A DNA stretch of 64,000 nt from Thiothrix sp. UBA5583. GTDB lineage: Bacteria; Pseudomonadota; Gammaproteobacteria; Thiotrichales; Thiotrichaceae. The DNA lies in the NCBI GenBank assembly GCA_002425225.1, contig DILV01000007.1:62001-126000 (forward strand), read 5' to 3'. Below, piece by piece: positions 20,315 to 29,864 of the stretch. The notes below the pieces were generated by a model. It worked only from the letters and a program-made list of their open reading frames with translations. It ran no database searches and was not told the origin of the DNA. Position numbers and translations under genes: made by a program. Numbering within the stretch: position 1 is the first letter of the stretch; every line of letters starts with the position of its first letter.

Positions 20315-20348
20315 GCAGGTTGTCAGCCGCTGCAACGCGGGAAGTTGT

Positions 20349-23300
20349 TCATCCATGATGCAATTTCCCGCGCACCTTCCTGAATCCCACCAAAATATCA
20401 TCAATAAACGTAAACACCACTGGAATTACCAGCAAGCACAAGAACGTCGAAGCCATCAACCCACCAATCACCACAATTGCCATCGGCTGGCGGAAGCTGG
20501 GGTCAGCCGCCAGCCCCAGCGCGGTTGGCATCATCCCCGCACCCATGGCAATCGTGGTCATCACAATCGGTCGCGCCCGTTTGTGGCAAGCATCCAGCAA
20601 GGCTGGGATGCGCCCGCTCTGGTCACGTTCCCGCGCCATCACCGCATAATCCACCAGCAGAATCGAGTTCTTGGTCACAATCCCCATCAGCATCAGCAGG
20701 CCAATCACCGCAGGCATCGAAAAGCTGCTGCCAGTAATCAGCAAGGCCACAAATGCCCCGCCCACCGACAACGGCAATGCCGCCAGAATCGTGATCGGTT
20801 GCAAAAAGTCGTGGAACAGCAGCACCAGCACGATGTAGATGAACATTACCCCGATCAGCATCGCTCCACCGAAGCCGCCGAACAGTTCCGCCATGCGCTC
20901 GGCATCGCCGGAACTTTGCCGTTCCACACCGGGCGGCAGGGTCTTCAGCGCAGGCAGTTTGTCCACCATCGCCGTCACCTGACCCACCGGCAAACCATTC
21001 AGTTCCACATCAATGCTCACATTGCGCTTGCGGTCGAAACGGTCAATCCGCGCCGGGCCGCTGCCGAGGCTCACATCTGCCACCGCCGCCAGCGGTACGG
21101 AGCCATTGCGCCCCGGAATCCGCAACTGGCGGATGGTGTCGAGGTCGGCACGCACCGCTTCGTCAAATTGCACGCGGATCGGGATTTGCCGTTGCGGCAA
21201 ATTCAGCTTCGGCAAGCGGGTGGAAAAGTCGCCGCTGGTGGCGACCCGCACTGCTTGCCCTAGGGTTTCGGTGCTGACGCCCAGTTCGGCAGCGCGGGCG
21301 TAATCCGGTGTGATGTGGATTTCCGGGCGTTGCAGGCTTGCGCCTGACACCACATTGCCGATGCCCTGCACGGTGCGCAGGTCGCGTTCAGCCGCTTGTG
21401 CCGCTGCAATCAGCGTGTCGCCGTCGTCACTCGCCAGTACCACCTGCATCTTGTCGCCCGCCCCGCCGGAACCCACAGTGAAACGCACCCCTGGTAGTGG
21501 CTTGAGGGCAGCGCGGATGTCGGCTTCCACTTCGGTCTGTTTGCGTGAACGCTCTTCGCGGGTGGTCAGTTGCAGGGTCAGAGTCGCCTTGCGGGAATCC
21601 GTGCCGCTGGCTTCCGCAAACGGACCGCTGCTGACCCCGCCACCACCGCCGACCACGGTGAAGACTTTCTTCACGTCAGGCAACGGTGCAAGCAACTGGC
21701 GGGCTTGTTCGGCAACAGCGTAAGTTTCTTCCAGTGGCGTCCCCGGCTGCATTTCCATTGACACGGAAGTCAGAGCGGTATCGGCAGGTGGCACGAAACC
21801 TTTTGGCAGCAACGGCACGATTTGCAGCGAAGCGACAAAAATCGCAATCGCGGCAAACAGGGTGATGAAACGGTGCTTTAAACACCATGCGGCGGCTGCC
21901 ATGTAATTGCGCATGAACCAGCCGTCTTTTTGCTCCTTCTCCGGGTGCGGCTTGAGGAAATAAGCCGCCATCATCGGCGTGAGCAAGCGTGCGACTGCCA
22001 GCGAGAAAAACACCGCTACCGCTGCGGTAATGCCGAACGATTTGAAAAATTTGCCCGGCACGCCACCCATGAATGCGGTGGGCAGGAACACGGCGACCAG
22101 TGTGAAGGTAGTGGCAATCACCGCGAGGCCGATTTCGTCGGCGGCTTCCATTGCTGCCTGATACGGGGTTTTGCCCATACGCAGGTGGCGCTCAATGTTT
22201 TCCACCTCGACGATAGCGTCGTCCACCAGTACACCAACCACCAGTGCCAGCGCCAGCAGGGTGAGGATATTGAGCGAAAATCCGAAATACTGCATCGCTA
22301 GGAAGGTGGGGATGATCGCCAGTGGCAGCGCAGCGGCGGATACCAGTGTGGCGCGGATATTGCCTAGGAACAGGAACACCACCAGGATGGCGAGGGCAGC
22401 GCCTTCGTACAGCAGGTGCATGGAGCCGGTGTAGTTGGCCTGGATACGCTCGATGGTGTCGTAGGCTTCGTCAATCTGCACCTGCGGGTGATCGGCGGAG
22501 AATTTGGCAACAGCGGCACGTACCCCGTTTACCACGTCGATTTCACTCGCGCCGCGTACTCGTGTGATCTGGAAACCGACCACGGATTTGCCGTTGAACA
22601 GGGCATGGGTGGAACGTTCAGCGATGGTGTCCTTGATTTGGGCAATTTGGTCAAGGCGCACATGCCGTCCGTTGGACAGCGGAATGTCGATAGCGCCCAG
22701 TTCCGCCGCTGTTTCGACCCGCCCCAAGGTACGCACGGACTGGATGCCACCGCCTACGTCGCCGCGCCCACCGGGTGCATCCTGTTGCATTTGCCCCAGA
22801 CGATTGGATACGTCAGCAGCGGTGACACCAAGGCCAGCCATCAATGCGGGATTGAGGTCGATGCGTACTTCGCGGTTGACTCCGCCAACCCGAGCTACTT
22901 TGCCCACGCCCTTGACGGACATGAGGGCACGTGTGATGTCGTTGTCGACGAACCAGGACAGGGCCTCCTCGTCCATACTGGCGGAAGCCACCGTGAACGT
23001 GACCAGCGGGCTGCCTGCGGTGGTGATTTTCGACACGATCGGGTCGTTCATCTGCTGCGGCAGGTTGGCGCGGATGGTGTCGACCGCGTTGCGTACCTCG
23101 TTGAGGGCGACTTCGGTATCTTTTTCGATAGCGAATTCGGTGGCAATGCTGGCGCTGCTATCGGTCAGGGTGGTGCGGATGTGTTTGACGCCGGTGATGG
23201 TGGCAAGCTGGTTTTCGATCTTACGGGCGACTTCGCTTTCCAGTTGTTCCGGGTCAGCGCCTTCTAGCGAGGCGGTGACGACAATGGTTGGCAGGTCAAT

Positions 23301-23417
23301 GTCAGGGAAGTTCTGAATGCCGAGTGCTTGGAAACCCTTGATGCCGAGGAAGGTCAGCAGCGCGAACAGCAGGATGGCGGGAACCGGGTTGCGGATCGAC
23401 CAGGCGGAAACGTTCAT
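20349..23417 (-). CDS. RND efflux transporter, inner-membrane pump (HAE1/AcrB type)
   Basis: A 1022-residue pump subunit with the two-fold RND plan: one helix (about 10-30), a large periplasmic loop, six helices, then the same again. Typical features are IRNPVPAILLFALLTFLGIK, FPDIDLPTIVVTASLEGADP, the proton-relay helix LLALALVVGVLVDDAIVEVE, and the late helix motif GIVTKNSILLVDYA. It uses the proton gradient to export drugs or other amphiphiles through a TolC-type channel, which is not in the window. Its ATG overlaps the adaptor stop (ATGA), so it is translationally coupled to it. Confidence 0.95.
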   Translation of the reverse strand: MNVSAWSIRNPVPAILLFALLTFLGIKGFQALGIQNFPDIDLPTIVVTASLEGADPEQLESEVARKIENQLATITGVKHIRTTLTDSSASIATEFAIEKDTEVALNEVRNAVDTIRANLPQQMNDPIVSKITTAGSPLVTFTVASASMDEEALSWFVDNDITRALMSVKGVGKVARVGGVNREVRIDLNPALMAGLGVTAADVSNRLGQMQQDAPGGRGDVGGGIQSVRTLGRVETAAELGAIDIPLSNGRHVRLDQIAQIKDTIAERSTHALFNGKSVVGFQITRVRGASEIDVVNGVRAAVAKFSADHPQVQIDEAYDTIERIQANYTGSMHLLYEGAALAILVVFLFLGNIRATLVSAAALPLAIIPTFLAMQYFGFSLNILTLLALALVVGVLVDDAIVEVENIERHLRMGKTPYQAAMEAADEIGLAVIATTFTLVAVFLPTAFMGGVPGKFFKSFGITAAVAVFFSLAVARLLTPMMAAYFLKPHPEKEQKDGWFMRNYMAAAAWCLKHRFITLFAAIAIFVASLQIVPLLPKGFVPPADTALTSVSMEMQPGTPLEETYAVAEQARQLLAPLPDVKKVFTVVGGGGGVSSGPFAEASGTDSRKATLTLQLTTREERSRKQTEVEADIRAALKPLPGVRFTVGSGGAGDKMQVVLASDDGDTLIAAAQAAERDLRTVQGIGNVVSGASLQRPEIHITPDYARAAELGVSTETLGQAVRVATSGDFSTRLPKLNLPQRQIPIRVQFDEAVRADLDTIRQLRIPGRNGSVPLAAVADVSLGSGPARIDRFDRKRNVSIDVELNGLPVGQVTAMVDKLPALKTLPPGVERQSSGDAERMAELFGGFGGAMLIGVMFIYIVLVLLFHDFLQPITILAALPLSVGGAFVALLITGSSFSMPAVIGLLMLMGIVTKNSILLVDYAVMARERDQSGRIPALLDACHKRARPIVMTTIAMGAGMMPTALGLAADPSFRQPMAIVVIGGLMASTFLCLLVIPVVFTFIDDILVGFRKVRGKLHHG

Positions 23418-24583
23418 GATTTGTCCCCGCTATTACCCCCCATCCCCGACCCTTCCCCCGCAGGGGGGGAAGGGAGCGAAGAGGTAGGAGCGGAAGGGGC
23501 GTCTTGTTCCCTCACCCCTTGCGGGGGAGGGTTAGGGAGGGGGGTAATTTCCACAGTGTCGCCGTCGTTGAGGAAGCCGCCACCGGTGACGACCACGCGG
23601 GCAGAGGCGTCGACGCCATCGGTGATTTCAGTCTGGCCTTGCGCTGTCCTGCCGACTTTGACCTGACGCTGGGCTACCTTGTTTTCTGTGCCGATTTCAA
23701 ACACGTAATAGTTGCCATCACGCAGGATCACCGCTGACTGTGGCAGGGTCATGGCCTTGGCAGAGCCGGTGAGGATGGCACCTTCCGCAAACATGCCAGC
23801 CTTGGCAGGGCTGTCGCTGGGCAGGCTGATGTAAACGATGGCGTTACGGGTATTGGGGTCGAGGGTGGGGGAAACCATGCGCACTTCGCCGCTGACGCTT
23901 TCGCCGCCGGGCAGGGTCAGGTGTGCCTGTTGGCCTGGCTGGATGCGGGAAGCGTCACGTCCGGCAATTTCTGCCCGCCATTCGAGCTTGTTTTGGCGCA
24001 CCATGCGGAACAGTTCCGTGCCGGTTTGCACCACCGCACCGAGGGTGGCAGTGCGGGCGGCGATTACGCCGTCATCGGGGGCAAGAATACGGGTTTGCGC
24101 GAGGCGGATTTGCTGGGCTTCGAGTGCGGCTTGCGCCACCGCTTCGCCGGTCAGGTACTGGTCGATCTGCTGGGCAGGCAGTGCGCCGCTGGTTTTGAGG
24201 CTGCGGGCGCGGGTGGCATTGGCGCGGGCTTCGTCCAGTCTGGCTTGCGCCTGGGCGACATCGGCCTTGACCGAAGCTTGCGATAGTTTGGCGAGTTCCT
24301 GTCCCTTTTTGACTTCTGTACCAACATCAACCAGCACATCGGTGATTTTCAGACCACTGATTTCAGAAGCGATAATGGCTTCTTGCCAGGCAGTCAGTGC
24401 GCCACTGGCGGTAATGGTGCTGTTCCAGTCCTGCGTCTGTGGGCTGGCAACCGTGACAGCCAGTGCGGCTTTGGTTGGGGGAACATCAGCCGGTTTGTCT
24501 TCGGCATGGGAGAGCGGCAGGGATACTATCGTTGCCAGTGATAGGGCAAGCATGAGGGTAGCGAGCGAGAGGGTATTCTTCAT
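23414..24583 (-). CDS. RND efflux periplasmic adaptor (HlyD/AcrA type)
   Basis: A 389-residue membrane-fusion protein with a signal peptide (about 1-27), a lipoyl-like half motif ASGALTAWQEAIIASEISG, a helical hairpin about 95-160, a second lipoyl half (ILAPDDGVIAARTATLGAVV) and a beta-barrel domain. It bridges the RND pump to an outer-membrane channel. The last 45 residues (from about 344) are encoded by two facing REP-like repeats. They give a Pro/Gly/Ser-rich tail (TPLPNPPPQG and SLPSPPAGEGSGMGG) not expected in this family, ending in the ATGA overlap with the pump gene. A promoter overlapping a palindrome lies upstream. Confidence 0.93.
   Translation of the reverse strand: MKNTLSLATLMLALSLATIVSLPLSHAEDKPADVPPTKAALAVTVASPQTQDWNSTITASGALTAWQEAIIASEISGLKITDVLVDVGTEVKKGQELAKLSQASVKADVAQAQARLDEARANATRARSLKTSGALPAQQIDQYLTGEAVAQAALEAQQIRLAQTRILAPDDGVIAARTATLGAVVQTGTELFRMVRQNKLEWRAEIAGRDASRIQPGQQAHLTLPGGESVSGEVRMVSPTLDPNTRNAIVYISLPSDSPAKAGMFAEGAILTGSAKAMTLPQSAVILRDGNYYVFEIGTENKVAQRQVKVGRTAQGQTEITDGVDASARVVVTGGGFLNDGDTVEITPLPNPPPQGVREQDAPSAPTSSLPSPPAGEGSGMGGNSGDKS
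23437..23552. repeat. Inverted pair of REP-like repeats in the 3' end of the adaptor gene
   Basis: One copy runs 23437-23486 (CCCATCCCCGACCC, CCCCCGC, AGCGAAGAGG) and the second, in the opposite direction, 23507-23552 (CCTCACCCCTTGCGGGGGAG). Together they code in frame for the C-terminal tail of the RND adaptor. Confidence 0.8.
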
Positions 24584-24588
24584 GTTAA

Positions 24589-24644
24589 TGACTGCCAGTC
24601 AATTGTTTGTCGGCAAGATTAGATGACCATTGGTCAGTTGTCCA
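24589..24644 (-). promoter_or_regulatory. Promoter and two TetR-type palindromes ahead of the efflux operon
   Basis: On the minus strand TGGACA (24639-24644), 17 bases, then TAATCT (24616-24621) form a good promoter for the adaptor-pump operon. Inside its spacer is a perfect 13-base palindrome, TGACCATTGGTCA (24624-24636). A second, TGACTGCCAGTCA (24589-24601), lies 35 bases away, between the promoter and the adaptor ATG. The shared TGACY...RGTCA form is typical of TetR-family operators; no tetR gene is in the window. Confidence 0.62.
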
Positions 24645-24682
24645 GTTTGACATGGAAAGAGCGCTGTTGCTAGCGGGGTGAC

Positions 24683-24731
24683 ACGGTGAATTTGGGCTAG
24701 GCAATAATCCTGCGCAAGGATATTTCACCGT
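24683..24731. repeat. Nested inverted repeat between the efflux operon and cas13a
   Basis: Outer arms ACGGTGAA (24683-24690) and TTCACCGT (24724-24731) enclose an inner hairpin ATCCT-GCGCA-AGGAT (24707-24721). It ends ten bases before the -35 of the cas13a promoter, so it may bind a regulator or act as a bidirectional barrier. Confidence 0.5.
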
Positions 24732-24740
24732 CAAGCTGTC

Positions 24741-24769
24741 CTGACAATCGGTGTGTTTTTTAGGATAAT
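24741..24769 (+). promoter_or_regulatory. Sigma-70 type promoter for cas13a
   Basis: CTGACA (24741-24746), a 17-base spacer, and GATAAT (24764-24769) each match five of six consensus bases. Predicted transcription starts near 24776, about 23 bases before the cas13a ATG. Confidence 0.65.
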
Positions 24770-24798
24770 GGAAACGTTTTATCGTTGAATGGACATGC

Positions 24799-27700
24799 AT
24801 GATGCAAATTATCAAGCCTTATGGACGTAGTGTTGTAGACACCGGTACAGGTGAACCAACCCAGCGCAAGCTACAGGATAAAAACCAGCAGCAACATGAT
24901 ATTTCGCAGTTTGTTCATGAACATGCCGAACTGGTTGTTGCCCAGTGGATTTCAGTGATTGACAAGATTGCGCGAAAGCCTCATGCCAATGGCAAGAATG
25001 CAGGTAAGTGCGGTCTGCCAACGGCAGGGCAGTACCAGTTGCGCGACATATTGGGAACAGCGGCCTGGGTCGAAGTTCTCAAACATTTGTCACCGGGTAT
25101 GGATGCACAGCGGCAACAGTATCTGGAAACATTGTGGTACTCGAAGATTCATCCCTACGGTAAACAAACACAAGAACAGGAAAAAGCAATACCTCTGCAA
25201 GGGCGTTGGTATCAACGGTTTGTAGGTGATGTTCTACCGGAAAATGTTGATGTTGCTTTGGCAAAGCAAGTGGCAGAACGTATCCACCTACATTTGTATG
25301 AAGCAGCACTGCGTATCAATCCCGAAGTTAGTGCACGTCGCAAAGGCAGTATTCAGGCGCAGGCAGAAACGATTACGAATAATACTTTGCACCCGGTAGT
25401 GCCACCAATGACATGGAGCAAGGCCGATTGGTCGGCCTACAACCGTTATGATGTAGCAGAACGTATCTATCTTGAAGCCAAGTACCGGCTTGAACAAAAG
25501 CAGGATGCACGCCAAAAGAAACAACCCATACAGCCCGAATGGCGCATTGACGGCAGCCTGGCAGGCAAGCTCCTGTTTGAACATTGGGCACAAGTGTTCA
25601 AAGGCAGTGATGGCAAGTCACGTATCAGTGAGGCCAAAACCCATGCCGCAGGATTATTTGCCTTACATATGGCTGTAAAGGATTTTTATACCCGCCTGTT
25701 TGATAGCAACAGAAAAGAAGAAACCTTGGTCAAGTTTCTGTTACCCCAGAAGAAAAAGGCATTACAGGAAAAACTGACGCAGAAATTACAAAATACAGAT
25801 GTCGCTGCCCGTATCCGTTTAGGCAAAATCCAGTATTACCGTAAAGCACAAGGGGAAGTGGTTCCTTTGGCAAACAGCCGTTTTTGGGGTAGTGATGGGC
25901 AGGCAGAAATCAAACGGGCAGAAGCCTTTGTACGTGTATGGCGGCATGTTTTGGGGCAGGCAAATTTAACGTTGGCGAATTGGGCATCACTGGCTTCGCC
26001 CGCTGATTTGTGGGGAGGTGACAGTTTCTTTGGTCACTTTTCTACTCATATAAATGGCAAGCTGTTTGCGACGGATATAGGTCTGGATAGTCGCCGCACT
26101 GTATTTGATCAAAATCTTCATTTGTTGTTTGGTGATGCTGCTGGTTTGTTCCAGAGTGATGATGAGACCCGCAAGGCAAGCATTTTACTGGCACATAAGT
26201 GTGGTGGTGCACTACGCAATGCCGCTTTCCACTTTAAAGGACGCGCCAAGTTTTTACAGGCACTGGAAAATGACCTGCCACAAGCTGCGCAATCGGGTTT
26301 GCAAATGCAGTTGTCCAAGCTGTGGGATGAAGCTCAAAACCAACAGGGTTCACGTTTACTGAAGATTTTGGAAGGGGCACATGTTTTTCATGTGTGCACA
26401 CAGGAACAAGTACAGCAGTTGGTCAATACTTTGGGTAATGTATCAGCGGGGGAGTTGCCATTACCACGTTTTGGCAGGGTTATCGAGCGTAATCATCATG
26501 CCCGGTTGGGTACAAACTTGCCAGTACGGGGCAACCGTCAGGCAATGGAGCAACACCCGGCACGCAAGTGTCAGTATGTGATGCTAAAGCTGTTGTATGA
26601 ACGGGCTTTCCGTGTATGGCTGGAAAATACTACCGATGAGGTGTTCAGTGTCTGGTTGGAGACAGCACTGGAACGTACTACCAATGCAGCACGCAACAAC
26701 CCGAATGTACAGGGAAAGTCGCAACATGAGCGTGAGTTGGTAATGGCGCGGGCAGCCAAGTTGCCAATTTCCATGCGGAGCAAGGGCGGGAAGGGTAAGG
26801 AAAAAAGTATCCGCCAGTTTTTTTATGATTTGTCGGCAGCCACAGCAAGTGAAATGCGTGTTCAGCGTGGTTATGCCAGTGATGCCGGGAAAGCACGGGA
26901 ACAGGCTGAATACATTGATGAGTTACTGCGTGATGTGGTGGCACTGGCGTTCAGGGAGTTTATCCGTGCCAATGGTTTTGACTGGTTGCTGGATATTGAT
27001 CCACAGCAGGAATTACGGGAAACCCGCTGTTGCTTGATGGAACATATCCGTTTTCCTGCGATAGCTCCTCGGTCAAACGCTTGGCAACCCGTCTTGTATT
27101 TCCTGTTGCATTTGATGCCAGTGGGAGAGGTATCGCAATTGCTGCACCAATTGGCAAAGTGGGAAATTCTTGCCAAGCCGGAACAGGCGCGGACAGATGA
27201 AGAAGGGATGCGTCTCCACGCATTGCAGCAGACACTTAAACTGTATCTGGACATGCACGACAGCCACTACACGGGGGCAGAATCCATGCCAGCAGTGGAA
27301 CGTGCAGTGTTGGATACTTTTGCCACCTTTTATGAAACACGCAATGGGCTGGACAAGGTATTTGAAGATCAGGGCAACGGGCGTGATGGTGCTCGTTATT
27401 TGCCACAGCGGGGGTTGCGTGAAATCCGGCGATTTGGGCATGTCCCTGTTTTGCAGGCACTGGTGAAGGATAAAATCACGGCACAAGATGTGACGCATTG
27501 TTTGCAGCAGGAAACTGTGCCTGCCAATGGCAAACTCTCGCCTGTTGCACAAGCACAACAGCGCCGTGAAACGTTGCACGGAGAATGGGTGAAGGAGCGT
27601 AAACAGTTCAAAGCATACCGTGATTATGCGGCAGCTTTGCAAACAGTGGTGGTGCATCGCCAGCTTTCCAATCATATTCGTCTGGTAGATCATGTGGCTG

Positions 27701-28464
27701 CACACCGTATTGTGATGAAAGTACTGGCGCGGCTGGCAGATTTTTCTGGCCTGTTTGAGCGTGATCTTACATTTGTAACACTGGCAGCCTTGCATGAGCA
27801 TCAATTGCAGCCCGAAGATTTCTTTGTGATTGATAATCCACCCAGGTACAACAATAGAGGTGAGCTAGAAAAAGACGGTTTGACCTTGTTCAAGAATGGT
27901 CAAGTTATCGAGGCTTTGGGCAAAGTGCAGGCATGTAGGGATGCACTAAAGCATCAAATTGTGGGACAGGTCAATCTTGATGTGCACCGTTCTGTTCGTA
28001 ATGATTTTGCCCATTTCAATATGCTGTATGGTAAACAACGTACCACTGAAAGTGCCACCAACAGGGTCATTAAATGTCCGGCTGCCCAAGGGTTAAACTT
28101 AACCTGTTGGGTTAATTGTGCTCGTAATCTCATGTCTTACGACCGCAAACTCAAAAATGCCGTGAGCCAATCCATCATTGAATTGATGGAGCGAGAGGGA
28201 TTCATTCTTACATGGGAAATGGACACGAACCACCAACTGTGTAGTCCAAAGCTGCAATCCCGTCAGGTTGAGCATTTGGGTGGACAGCGTTTCCCGTTGG
28301 TTAAGGATGAGCGCAAGAAATTGACAATCCGCGAAAATCTGCACTCAGTGGGAATGGTAAAACTGTTGGCACATGCATTTGGTGCAGTTGCAGAAGACGT
28401 GAAAGACATCAGTACGCTGGATTTGAATACGGTCAAGTGGGTGAAAAAGGATGCAACATTATAA
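24799..28464 (+). CDS. cas13a: Type VI-A CRISPR RNA-guided RNase Cas13a (C2c2)
   Basis: A 1221-residue protein beside a CRISPR array, with two HEPN RNase motifs: RNAAFH (R473, H478) and RNDFAH (R1067, H1072). Length and motif spacing fit Cas13a, where HEPN1 is internal and HEPN2 near the C-terminus; Cas13b carries them near its ends. The region after the second motif, NLMSYDRKLKNAVSQSII and then a segment ending REGFILTWEMD, closely follows the known Cas13a HEPN2 tail. Family knowledge: Cas13a processes its own crRNA, cuts complementary target RNA, and then cuts bystander RNA through the joint HEPN site. The N-terminal 300 residues (crRNA-binding lobe) are basic and not otherwise recognisable. 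Base composition is visibly poorer in G+C than the neighbours, suggesting transfer. It has its own promoter; the start is ATG 24799 with a weak ribosome site (another ATG follows at once). Confidence 0.95.
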   Translation: MMQIIKPYGRSVVDTGTGEPTQRKLQDKNQQQHDISQFVHEHAELVVAQWISVIDKIARKPHANGKNAGKCGLPTAGQYQLRDILGTAAWVEVLKHLSPGMDAQRQQYLETLWYSKIHPYGKQTQEQEKAIPLQGRWYQRFVGDVLPENVDVALAKQVAERIHLHLYEAALRINPEVSARRKGSIQAQAETITNNTLHPVVPPMTWSKADWSAYNRYDVAERIYLEAKYRLEQKQDARQKKQPIQPEWRIDGSLAGKLLFEHWAQVFKGSDGKSRISEAKTHAAGLFALHMAVKDFYTRLFDSNRKEETLVKFLLPQKKKALQEKLTQKLQNTDVAARIRLGKIQYYRKAQGEVVPLANSRFWGSDGQAEIKRAEAFVRVWRHVLGQANLTLANWASLASPADLWGGDSFFGHFSTHINGKLFATDIGLDSRRTVFDQNLHLLFGDAAGLFQSDDETRKASILLAHKCGGALRNAAFHFKGRAKFLQALENDLPQAAQSGLQMQLSKLWDEAQNQQGSRLLKILEGAHVFHVCTQEQVQQLVNTLGNVSAGELPLPRFGRVIERNHHARLGTNLPVRGNRQAMEQHPARKCQYVMLKLLYERAFRVWLENTTDEVFSVWLETALERTTNAARNNPNVQGKSQHERELVMARAAKLPISMRSKGGKGKEKSIRQFFYDLSAATASEMRVQRGYASDAGKAREQAEYIDELLRDVVALAFREFIRANGFDWLLDIDPQQELRETRCCLMEHIRFPAIAPRSNAWQPVLYFLLHLMPVGEVSQLLHQLAKWEILAKPEQARTDEEGMRLHALQQTLKLYLDMHDSHYTGAESMPAVERAVLDTFATFYETRNGLDKVFEDQGNGRDGARYLPQRGLREIRRFGHVPVLQALVKDKITAQDVTHCLQQETVPANGKLSPVAQAQQRRETLHGEWVKERKQFKAYRDYAAALQTVVVHRQLSNHIRLVDHVAAHRIVMKVLARLADFSGLFERDLTFVTLAALHEHQLQPEDFFVIDNPPRYNNRGELEKDGLTLFKNGQVIEALGKVQACRDALKHQIVGQVNLDVHRSVRNDFAHFNMLYGKQRTTESATNRVIKCPAAQGLNLTCWVNCARNLMSYDRKLKNAVSQSIIELMEREGFILTWEMDTNHQLCSPKLQSRQVEHLGGQRFPLVKDERKKLTIRENLHSVGMVKLLAHAFGAVAEDVKDISTLDLNTVKWVKKDATL

Positions 28465-28643
28465 GAAAAAAGGCAGAATGGCGGGCATCAACTCCGATTG
28501 AGGAAGCTGAATGGTGAGCTTTGTTTTCAATGATTTGGCTATCTGTATTTGAGATGGAAATGCTAACTCGGCATATCTCTTTTGATATAGATAGAAAAGT
28601 CATGCAACTTGTTGATCCTGAAGGCGATTCTTGACAGGTTGGG
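28465..28643 (+). promoter_or_regulatory. Leader region between cas13a and the CRISPR array
   Basis: The 179 bases between the cas13a stop and the first repeat are A/T-richer than the surroundings and hold no convincing ORF or terminator. A weak promoter-like pair (TTGTTT, 17 bases, TGTATT, 28521-28549) is present. With no terminator the array may also be transcribed by read-through from cas13a. The leader position is deduced from repeat orientation and from the degenerate repeat at the far end. Confidence 0.5.
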
Positions 28644-29237
28644 GTTTGAATACCACCCCCACATGACGGGGGACTGCAACAATCGCTTTATCGGATCGAA
28701 TTGATGACTTGAGTTTGAATACCACCCCCACATGACGGGGGACTGCAACCAATTGTATATTATTCAGCCAAGTTTTAATGGTTTGAATACCACCCCCACA
28801 TGACGGGGGACTGCAACATTCTGATACCTCGCTTGCGCCTGATGTGTCTGTTTGAATACCACCCCCACATGACGGGGGACTGCAACCCACTTCCTATGTC
28901 ACTGTTTTGGTCGCGCAGGGTTTGAATACCACCCCCACATGACGGGGGACTGCAACCATATTGGTCTCGTCGTTAACAGCGTATGATACGTTTGAATACC
29001 ACCCCCACATGACGGGGGACTGCAACTGCCGTATCCAACAACATTTTGAATTCCGTTGTGTTTGAATACCACCCCCACATGACGGGGGACTGCAACCGGT
29101 TTTTTCCGCTACATCCTGAATCGTTCCCGGTTTGAATACCACCCCCACATGACGGGGGACTGCAACCTAACAACGCGGCTCGACGACGGACGCGGCGTTC
29201 GTTTGAATACCACCCTCTCATGGCGGGGGATTGCTTG
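28644..29237 (+). CRISPR. Type VI-A CRISPR array, 9 repeats and 8 spacers
   Basis: Eight identical 37-base repeats start at 28644, 28713, 28781, 28850, 28920, 28990, 29060 and 29130, with a ninth degenerate one at 29201. The repeat begins GTTTGAATACCA and ends GGGGGACTGCAAC. Positions 13-17 (CCCCC) pair with 25-29 (GGGGG) around the loop ACATGAC. Spacers are 32, 31, 32, 33, 33, 33, 33 and 34 bases, all different. The stem followed by ACTGCAAC at the 3' end is the Cas13a type of repeat, which forms the 5' handle of the crRNA, so the array is read on the plus strand, the same way as cas13a. The ninth repeat differs at positions 16, 18, 23, 31 and 35-37, as expected of the trailer end. Confidence 0.98.
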
Positions 29238-29241
29238 AACC

Positions 29242-29284
29242 GGTGAGGTTGATCACCTAAACTTGTCTGCAAGATAGGACAAGT
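29242..29284. promoter_or_regulatory. Inverted repeats ahead of the yefM/yoeB operon (likely operator)
   Basis: A perfect inverted repeat ACTTGTC (29261-29267) / GACAAGT (29278-29284) lies 11 bases before the antitoxin ATG, and GGTGA/TCACC (29242-29246 and 29253-29257) just before it. YefM-YoeB complexes repress their own promoter through short palindromes, so this is the natural operator candidate. Confidence 0.5.
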
Positions 29285-29295
29285 CAGGATAATTC

Positions 29296-29550
29296 ATGCA
29301 AGTCGTTACCTTTTCCGAAGCCCGCAACAACCTGAAAGCAGTGCTCAACCGCGTGGTTGAAGATGCCGATTGCACCATCATCACCCGTCGTGACGCGGAG
29401 GATGCCGTGGTCATGTCGCTGGATTACTACAACAGTCTGATGGAAACCCTACATCTGCTGAAAACACCCGCCAACGCTGCCCATCTCCAACAATCCATCG
29501 AACAGTTCCGCCGGGGTAAAATCACCCCACGGGATTTGTTGCATGAATAG
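29296..29550 (+). CDS. yefM: YefM/Phd-family antitoxin
   Basis: An 84-residue protein matching YefM (83 residues in E. coli). The N-terminal dimer and DNA-binding fold is seen in VVTFSEARNNLKAVLNRVVE and ITRRDAEDAVVMSLDYYNSL; the C-terminal 30 residues (QSIEQFRRGKITPRDLLHE) are the segment that wraps the toxin. It binds YoeB and, with it, represses its own operon. AGGAT precedes the ATG. It starts 58 bases after the last CRISPR repeat, and its 3' end overlaps the toxin gene by 8 bases. Confidence 0.93.
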   Translation: MQVVTFSEARNNLKAVLNRVVEDADCTIITRRDAEDAVVMSLDYYNSLMETLHLLKTPANAAHLQQSIEQFRRGKITPRDLLHE

Positions 29551-29809
29551 GAAGTTGGCTTGGACAGATGCCGCTTGGGCAGATTATCTTTACTGGCAAT
29601 CGCAAGATAAAAAAACGCTCAAGCGCATCAATAAACTGATCGAAGAAAGCAAACGCACGCCTTTTGAAGGTATCGGCAAACCTGAGCCGTTGCGCCACAA
29701 TCTGGCAGGCTTCTGGTCGCGTCGCATAGATGACGTCAATCGTGTGGTTTATGCCGTTGACGATGAATACCTCACTATCATTGCCTGCTGCTACCACTAC
29801 GAAAACTGA
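29543..29809 (+). CDS. yoeB: YoeB-family mRNA interferase toxin
   Basis: An 88-residue protein of the Txe/YoeB family (84 in E. coli). Conserved features are LAWTDAAWADYLYWQSQDKK, KPEPLRHNLAGFWSRRI, an Arg in NRVVYAV, and the catalytic tail CCYHY (H85, Y86). YoeB enters the ribosomal A site and cuts mRNA there; YefM neutralises it. The 8-base overlap with the antitoxin gene indicates coupled translation. All residues expected at the active site appear present, so the toxin should be functional. Confidence 0.93.
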   Translation: MNRKLAWTDAAWADYLYWQSQDKKTLKRINKLIEESKRTPFEGIGKPEPLRHNLAGFWSRRIDDVNRVVYAVDDEYLTIIACCYHYEN

Positions 29810-29864
29810 CCGTGCACCACCGCAACCACGACCATGACCACAATCCACCGGATGGCAGCAATAT

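Follow-up and report, generated by a model that had tools for sequence, protein, structure and literature searches.

Does a gammaproteobacterium carry a genuine type VI-A CRISPR-Cas system and, if so, how did it arrive and from what are its spacers drawn? These questions are raised by a cas13a gene and an adjoining CRISPR array in Thiothrix sp. UBA5583, within a 64,000-nucleotide (nt) stretch of contig DILV01000007.1 (positions 62,001 to 126,000, forward strand; hereafter the window, meaning the whole stretch analysed). The contig comprises 201,607 bases of a 3.55-Mb genome. A preliminary description, made from the sequence alone, had placed a type VI-A locus in a gammaproteobacterial host, and this host, a sulfur bacterium, is indeed a gammaproteobacterium. 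We consider it highly probable that the locus is a complete type VI-A interference module served by adaptation in trans, transferred into the interval between sucA and dusB and holding one spacer derived from an integron attC site. The features central to this reading are as follows, in window coordinates.

24799-28464, + strand: cas13a, the type VI-A effector gene, 1221 residues, ATG start (open reading frame list, profile matches, HEPN motifs)
28465-28643, + strand: leader-side intergenic sequence separating cas13a from the array, conserved only in patches relative to its counterpart in Thiothrix fructosivorans
28644-29237, + strand: CRISPR array of eight identical 37-nt repeats, GTTTGAATACCACCCCCACATGACGGGGGACTGCAAC, a degenerate ninth repeat at 29201-29237, and eight spacers
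29167-29200, + strand: spacer 8, adjoining the degenerate repeat, with 32 of its 34 bases matched in an attC site of a sister Thiothrix, in cassette sense

The 1221-residue protein matched the NCBIfam model NF038188 at 708.8 bits (profile positions 1-1190 of 1192; cut-off 150) and the PADLOC Cas13a model end to end at 705.3 bits. A phmmer search of solved structures returned the Cas13a 7os0 as the nearest relative (E 3.7e-79; alignment gapped, in two stretches), followed by six further chains with Leptotrichia-type or other Cas13a names and two at chance level. We take 7os0 to be the Cas13a of Rhodobacter capsulatus, an alphaproteobacterium. The two RNxxxH motifs originally reported at R473/H478 and R1067/H1072 are there, as RNAAFH (473-478) and RNDFAH (1067-1072); further RxxxxH strings occur at 922, 954 and 1047, none beginning with RN. 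Alignment to solved Cas13a proteins places both motifs at the positions expected for the family, HEPN1 (R473) against the RN...H of 7os0 and HEPN2 (R1067) against that of 9mvs_A. Because the Cas13a profiles match end to end and the nearest structure is a Cas13a, the product of 24799-28464 is, as judged from its sequence, full-length Cas13a, and the locus is of type VI-A, as first proposed.

The array begins 179 bases beyond the cas13a stop codon (28464 to 28644), in keeping with the eight-spacer array that had been noted close to the gene, and its spacers measure 32, 31, 32, 33, 33, 33, 33 and 34 nt in order. Its repeat has a short stem in CRISPR RNA orientation, the orientation being taken from the repeat form. 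This Cas13a-like stem, also anticipated, consists of five CCCCC/GGGGG pairs (-9.8 kcal/mol) and is preserved in 20 of 20 cells across the four repeats compared, with one two-sided change. Transcription of the array in the + direction is suggested by the form of the repeat and by the degeneracy of the last one. Degenerate last repeats are common at the old end of arrays; because spacer 8 adjoins this one, it is probably the oldest spacer.

If characterised members of the Cas13a family are taken as a guide to what are here sequence features alone, the system would work as follows. The array would be transcribed in the + direction, and Cas13a would bind the repeat hairpin and process the transcript. 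Spacers would guide Cas13a to complementary RNA, and target binding would bring the two HEPN motifs together into one ribonuclease site able to cleave both the target and other RNA, halting the cell or the invader. New spacers would come from mobile-element DNA and be integrated in trans by the Cas1 encoded in a separate type III-B locus; the locus itself very probably entered a variable site between sucA and dusB by horizontal transfer, with one spacer as the record of an integron attC site.

A scan of genome contigs recovered two relatives of the window Cas13a, both confirmed as Cas13a by profile; the scan was built on short peptides of the window protein, so that distant relatives escape it. 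The closer relative belongs to T. fructosivorans ATCC 49748 (NZ_JAFMPM010000008.1, here L003), a gammaproteobacterium of the order Thiotrichales, and is 68% identical over a full alignment. As in the window, cas13a is followed by the array, and the repeat differs at 2 of 37 positions; no cas1 or cas2 was recognised by eye in the open reading frame list, no profile search being made. Its array has 14 repeats. Of the 13 spacers between them, none recurs in the window (18 identities in the best pair) and none has a convincing source in 16 genus genomes. The T. fructosivorans protein (L003:8004-11624) has RHAAFH as its HEPN1 motif in place of RNxxxH, retaining the R and the H. Upstream of cas13a there is little conservation between the two loci, and the T. 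fructosivorans locus lies at a different site, beside uvrA, PhdYefM/PIN toxin-antitoxin genes and a TnpB-like gene. The TnpB-like gene (Cas12f1-like_TNB, OrfB_IS605) stands directly upstream of cas13a, at L003:6752-7852. The second relative, in a metagenome-assembled genome of Micavibrio sp. UBA6147, which we take to be alphaproteobacterial, is 42% identical to the window protein and scored 808.5 bits with NF038188. Gene and array follow the same order and the repeat is similar, at 36 nt; the seven spacers before the contig end are all 30 nt, whereas those of the window are 31-34 nt.

Overall, the locus is probably a genuine and functional type VI-A system, to judge from its sequence features. 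We think it unlikely that it is instead decayed or silent, with its genes present, adaptation stopped and the array a fossil. Such decay would fit the lack of an adjoining Cas1, a recognisable source for only one of the eight spacers and the degenerate last repeat, the last of these being ordinary at the old end of an array. Eight letter-identical repeats, an intact frame of 1221 codons and the retention of both catalytic motifs argue for a maintained system.

With regard to spacer acquisition, a genome-wide Cas1 search (Cas2 was not searched) found no Cas1 beside the cas13a locus. The only matches were two adjacent frames in a separate type III-B locus of the same genome (L007:885-18900, contig C27), which also encodes Cas10, Cmr1, Cmr3, Cmr4, Cmr5, Cmr6 and a CARF-HEPN protein and has its own array of 24 36-nt repeats. 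One of the two Cas1 frames matched the PADLOC model for a 'diverged variant, second in the loci', and the frame of 332 residues matched Cas_Cas1 alone in Pfam. The host genome yielded no reverse transcriptase (RT; RVT_1 at E<=0.001), and hence not the linked RT-Cas1 that marks the VI-A/RT variant, Cas1 occurring only in the III-B locus. Because the only Cas1 lies there and no RT was detected, the window spacers probably derive from DNA. Spacer lengths vary in both Thiothrix type VI-A arrays (31-34 nt in the window, 32-35 nt in T. fructosivorans) and in the III-B array (30-36 nt, apart from one of its 23 intervals, a 395-base gap), which faintly suggests adaptation machinery common to types VI-A and III-B. 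The window array shares no spacer with either of the other two arrays (best pairs, 18 identities).

The array might alternatively hold a memory of RNA phages, with spacers acquired from RNA by reverse transcription, a mechanism put forward for some alphaproteobacterial loci of type VI-A that carry RT-Cas1. In its favour, the nearest solved structure is an alphaproteobacterial Cas13a; together with pairwise scores, this origin would place the window protein near clade 1 of the type VI-A phylogeny of 2019. According to Toro et al., that clade comprises Alphaproteobacteria and one spirochaete, its proteobacterial Cas13a occurs with or without an adaptation module, and some of its loci carry RT-Cas1 (PMC6753606). 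The main text of that paper contains neither 'gammaproteobacteria' nor any word beginning with 'Thio'. In contrast to those RT-Cas1 members, no RT was detected in the window genome, so RNA-derived spacers are unlikely, and the 332-residue Cas1 frame has no second Pfam domain; moreover, spacer 8 matches a DNA site of an integron. We therefore regard an RNA-derived memory as very improbable. The suggestion in the preliminary description that Cas13a defends against RNA phage, or against phage transcripts, is qualified accordingly: its first half is the less likely one, since no RT was detected and the sole identifiable target is a DNA element, attC.

Targets for the spacers were sought in phage and plasmid records, using the whole array as the query for spacers 1-7 and spacer 8 also singly. 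Queried whole, the array found nothing in phage records and 22 weak matches among plasmids, the best at E 0.6. With spacer 8 as the sole query, weak and scattered matches turned up in 39 plasmid and 32 phage records. In IMG/VR, one exact 18-mer from each of spacers 1-7 and a single exact 18- or 20-mer from spacer 8 found 1, 0, 4, 1, 1, 9, 1 and 0 stretches for spacers 1 to 8, and extension of these gave at best 24 of 33 identities; such exact patterns overlook targets mismatched within the k-mer.

When the native array was compared with the 16 genus genomes, one strong outside spacer match emerged, between spacer 8 and sister genome G054 (E 1.1e-7); in 12 further sister genomes the spacer 8 region was matched more weakly (E 0.01-0.7). 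Among 16 match loci inspected, nine have at least 22 of 34 ungapped identities, and the G054 site has 32 of 34. In the same 75 kb, on both strands, the other seven spacers reach 19-21 identities and 300 dinucleotide shuffles of spacer 8 at most 24. Four stretches of G054 and G056 hold 52 sites within four mismatches of a common core, 41 of which measure 89 nt end to end. Their end boxes are AAC and GTT in 37 cases and TAC and GTT in 14, the remaining site being without GTT. Integron integrases (TIGR02249) lie near the site arrays, at G054:C4:4562097 and G056:C1:1559678. We read these as integron attC sites, given repeated sites with AAC...GTT-type boxes in a cassette array accompanied by an integron integrase. 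Spacer 8 has the cassette sense: it runs in the AAC-to-GTT direction, same-strand open reading frames end just before a neighbouring site, and the integrase lies on the opposite strand. The reading frame directly before the matched attC (77 residues, no Pfam family) is antisense to the cassette array.

The host itself has an integron integrase (G000:C21:18555-19493, 426.2 bits), and no attC-like core of the spacer 8 type was found on its 21-kb contig. Across the host genome, the 18-base core found one other site within three mismatches (with three) against nine for a reversed control, so the guide is not obviously self-targeting.

As a separate observation, the first spacer of the III-B array (L007:16923-16956) appears by eye to be an imperfect palindrome with attC-like arms. 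We do not claim it as an attC, its best match in the plasmid collection being a Rhizobium 'strawberry notch' gene (E 0.02), and the loci compared contain no further copy.

Several results weigh against the overall reading. Spacers 1-7 have no convincing target in the phage and plasmid records, IMG/VR or the 16 genus genomes, and we infer, rather than observe, that Cas1 acts in trans. The AlphaFold2 model (three sequences; mean predicted local distance difference test score 38.9) was too poor to assess a joint HEPN site. For the repeat stem, stability is little above that of shuffles (z -1.21), and 128 of 500 shuffles equal the observed preservation, so its covariation is not beyond shuffles. 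As for the attC sites, full complementarity of the six-base boxes is limited to 12 of 52, and the matched site folds, as DNA, no more stably than shuffles (z -0.61). Finally, because spacer 8 is in cassette-sense orientation, antisense RNA is all that its guide would bind, and ordinary cassette mRNA would not pair with it.

The unexceptional fold also counts towards a chance likeness between spacer 8 and attC, both being G+C rich and hairpin-like, as do the weak spacer 8 matches in unrelated high-G+C plasmids (at most 39 bits, best E 0.07) and in phages (up to 34 bits). An ungapped match of 32 of 34 to one attC, at the E value found in that genome, stands far from what the other seven spacers and the 300 shuffles attain, and makes such a coincidence extremely improbable. 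It is virtually inconceivable that the effector is a HEPN ribonuclease of another family resembling Cas13a: RxxxxH motifs are widespread among HEPN families and the protein matched no Pfam family, but the profile search suggested at the outset matched curated Cas13a models end to end with no other NCBIfam or PADLOC family and no non-Cas HEPN family, the protein adjoins a Cas13a-type array, and a non-Cas HEPN protein is refuted by the NF038188, PADLOC and 7os0 matches.

How a type VI-A module came to lie between sucA and dusB is addressed by its surroundings, which include the following features.

20315-29864, no strand assigned: insert of ~9.55 kb between the convergent genes sucA and dusB (sister-genome comparison, open reading frames)
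24741-24769, + strand: promoter-like match CTGACA-17-GATAAT upstream of cas13a, weak (10 of 12 bases) and not above shuffles
29296-29550, + strand: YefM-like antitoxin gene (PF02604, 82.3 bits)
29543-29809, + strand: YoeB-like toxin gene (PF06769, 132.4 bits)

Four promoter-like matches were found in this region against a shuffle mean of 6.1, and thus no excess. The insert contains an RND-type transporter gene (named by eye), an HlyD-family gene, cas13a, the array and the YefM-YoeB pair. This pair is probably a neighbour outside the CRISPR system; its role as a component is unsupported, since the T. fructosivorans locus has different immediate neighbours, with a PhdYefM/PIN pair ~2 kb upstream.

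The site was compared in 15 sister genomes, 15 kb each. Both genes were seen together in ten (the others being G048, G050, G054, G058 and G062), with gaps of ~0.05-0.2 kb in G049, G056 and G057, 0.7-0.9 kb in G052 and G053, and 2.9-5.2 kb in G051, G055, G059, G060 and G061. Ten selected open reading frames from the larger inserts of G051, G055, G059 and G060 were scanned, G061 being left out. TIR proteins occur in the inserts of G051, G055 and G059, and G060 carries a 1531-residue helicase/nuclease matching the PADLOC PDC-S37 and Hhe models. With defence-like genes thus present in four of the four larger sister inserts scanned, the sucA-dusB site behaves as a variable defence hot spot in Thiothrix. 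In G059, a TIR gene is accompanied by a likely diversity-generating retroelement (L094:8752-12677), made up of an FGE-sulfatase-fold protein, a reverse transcriptase and two copies of a 134-nt repeat. The copies differ at 13 positions, at 12 of which the one following the reverse transcriptase has A.

The G+C content of cas13a is 48.3%, compared with 54.5% for the window. This low value, from which transfer had already been suggested, and a 9.55-kb insert where three sisters have ~0.05-0.2 kb together support acquisition of the locus by horizontal transfer, as far as sequence comparison can indicate. In the 14 sisters that match both, the HlyD gene and the gene past dusB are separated by over 100 kb or fall on different contigs (G048, with no HlyD match at threshold, was excluded), which suggests that the insert also includes a piece relocated from elsewhere. 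A phage or plasmid as the source of Cas13a was rejected, since 72,556 plasmid and 50,697 phage records contained nothing that matched it by tblastn at E<=1e-5.

Of 63 genomes of the order, 2 have a Cas13a above the cut-off, and samples of 369 genomes from the class and 398 from the phylum contain 1 each. These counts include the host's own genome, which is the one in the class. Two further genomes of the class sample gave partial matches (66.7 and 20.4 bits); the 66.7-bit match, L065 (G174:C35:94-558), covers profile positions 1-163 near a contig edge in another gammaproteobacterial family. The open-access literature returned no match joining Cas13a with Thiothrix, or Cas13a with both Gammaproteobacteria and type VI-A, and for Cas13a with gammaproteobacteria nothing pertinent in titles or the opening lines of abstracts. 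The system is thus known in kind and rare in Gammaproteobacteria, and the preliminary description was correct on nearly all points of sequence.

An intact Cas13a locus, with a second at 68% identity, occurs in gammaproteobacterial Thiothrix, outside the mostly alphaproteobacterial clade of 2019. An RNA-targeting CRISPR system alongside a III-B Cas1, with no RT detected, makes the origin of type VI spacers testable. An attC-derived spacer connects RNA-guided immunity with integrons, the gene-capturing platforms of the host's relatives. In the open-access literature on CRISPR spacers or protospacers together with attC, no such pairing was described among the matches listed, and the passages seen of one paper (PMC4119200) report no attC-derived spacer. 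Sites of the attC kind have been reported in phages (PMC9892861), which offers CRISPR systems a way of encountering them. That an RNA-guided ribonuclease system polices integrons through a guide against the conserved attC arm is a quite doubtful proposition. If true, an element or cassette block transcribed antisense through attC would trip Cas13a, and the guide would not be self-toxic, since no site of this attC type shows in the host genome. As the attC arm is common to dozens of cassettes, one spacer could then react to many.

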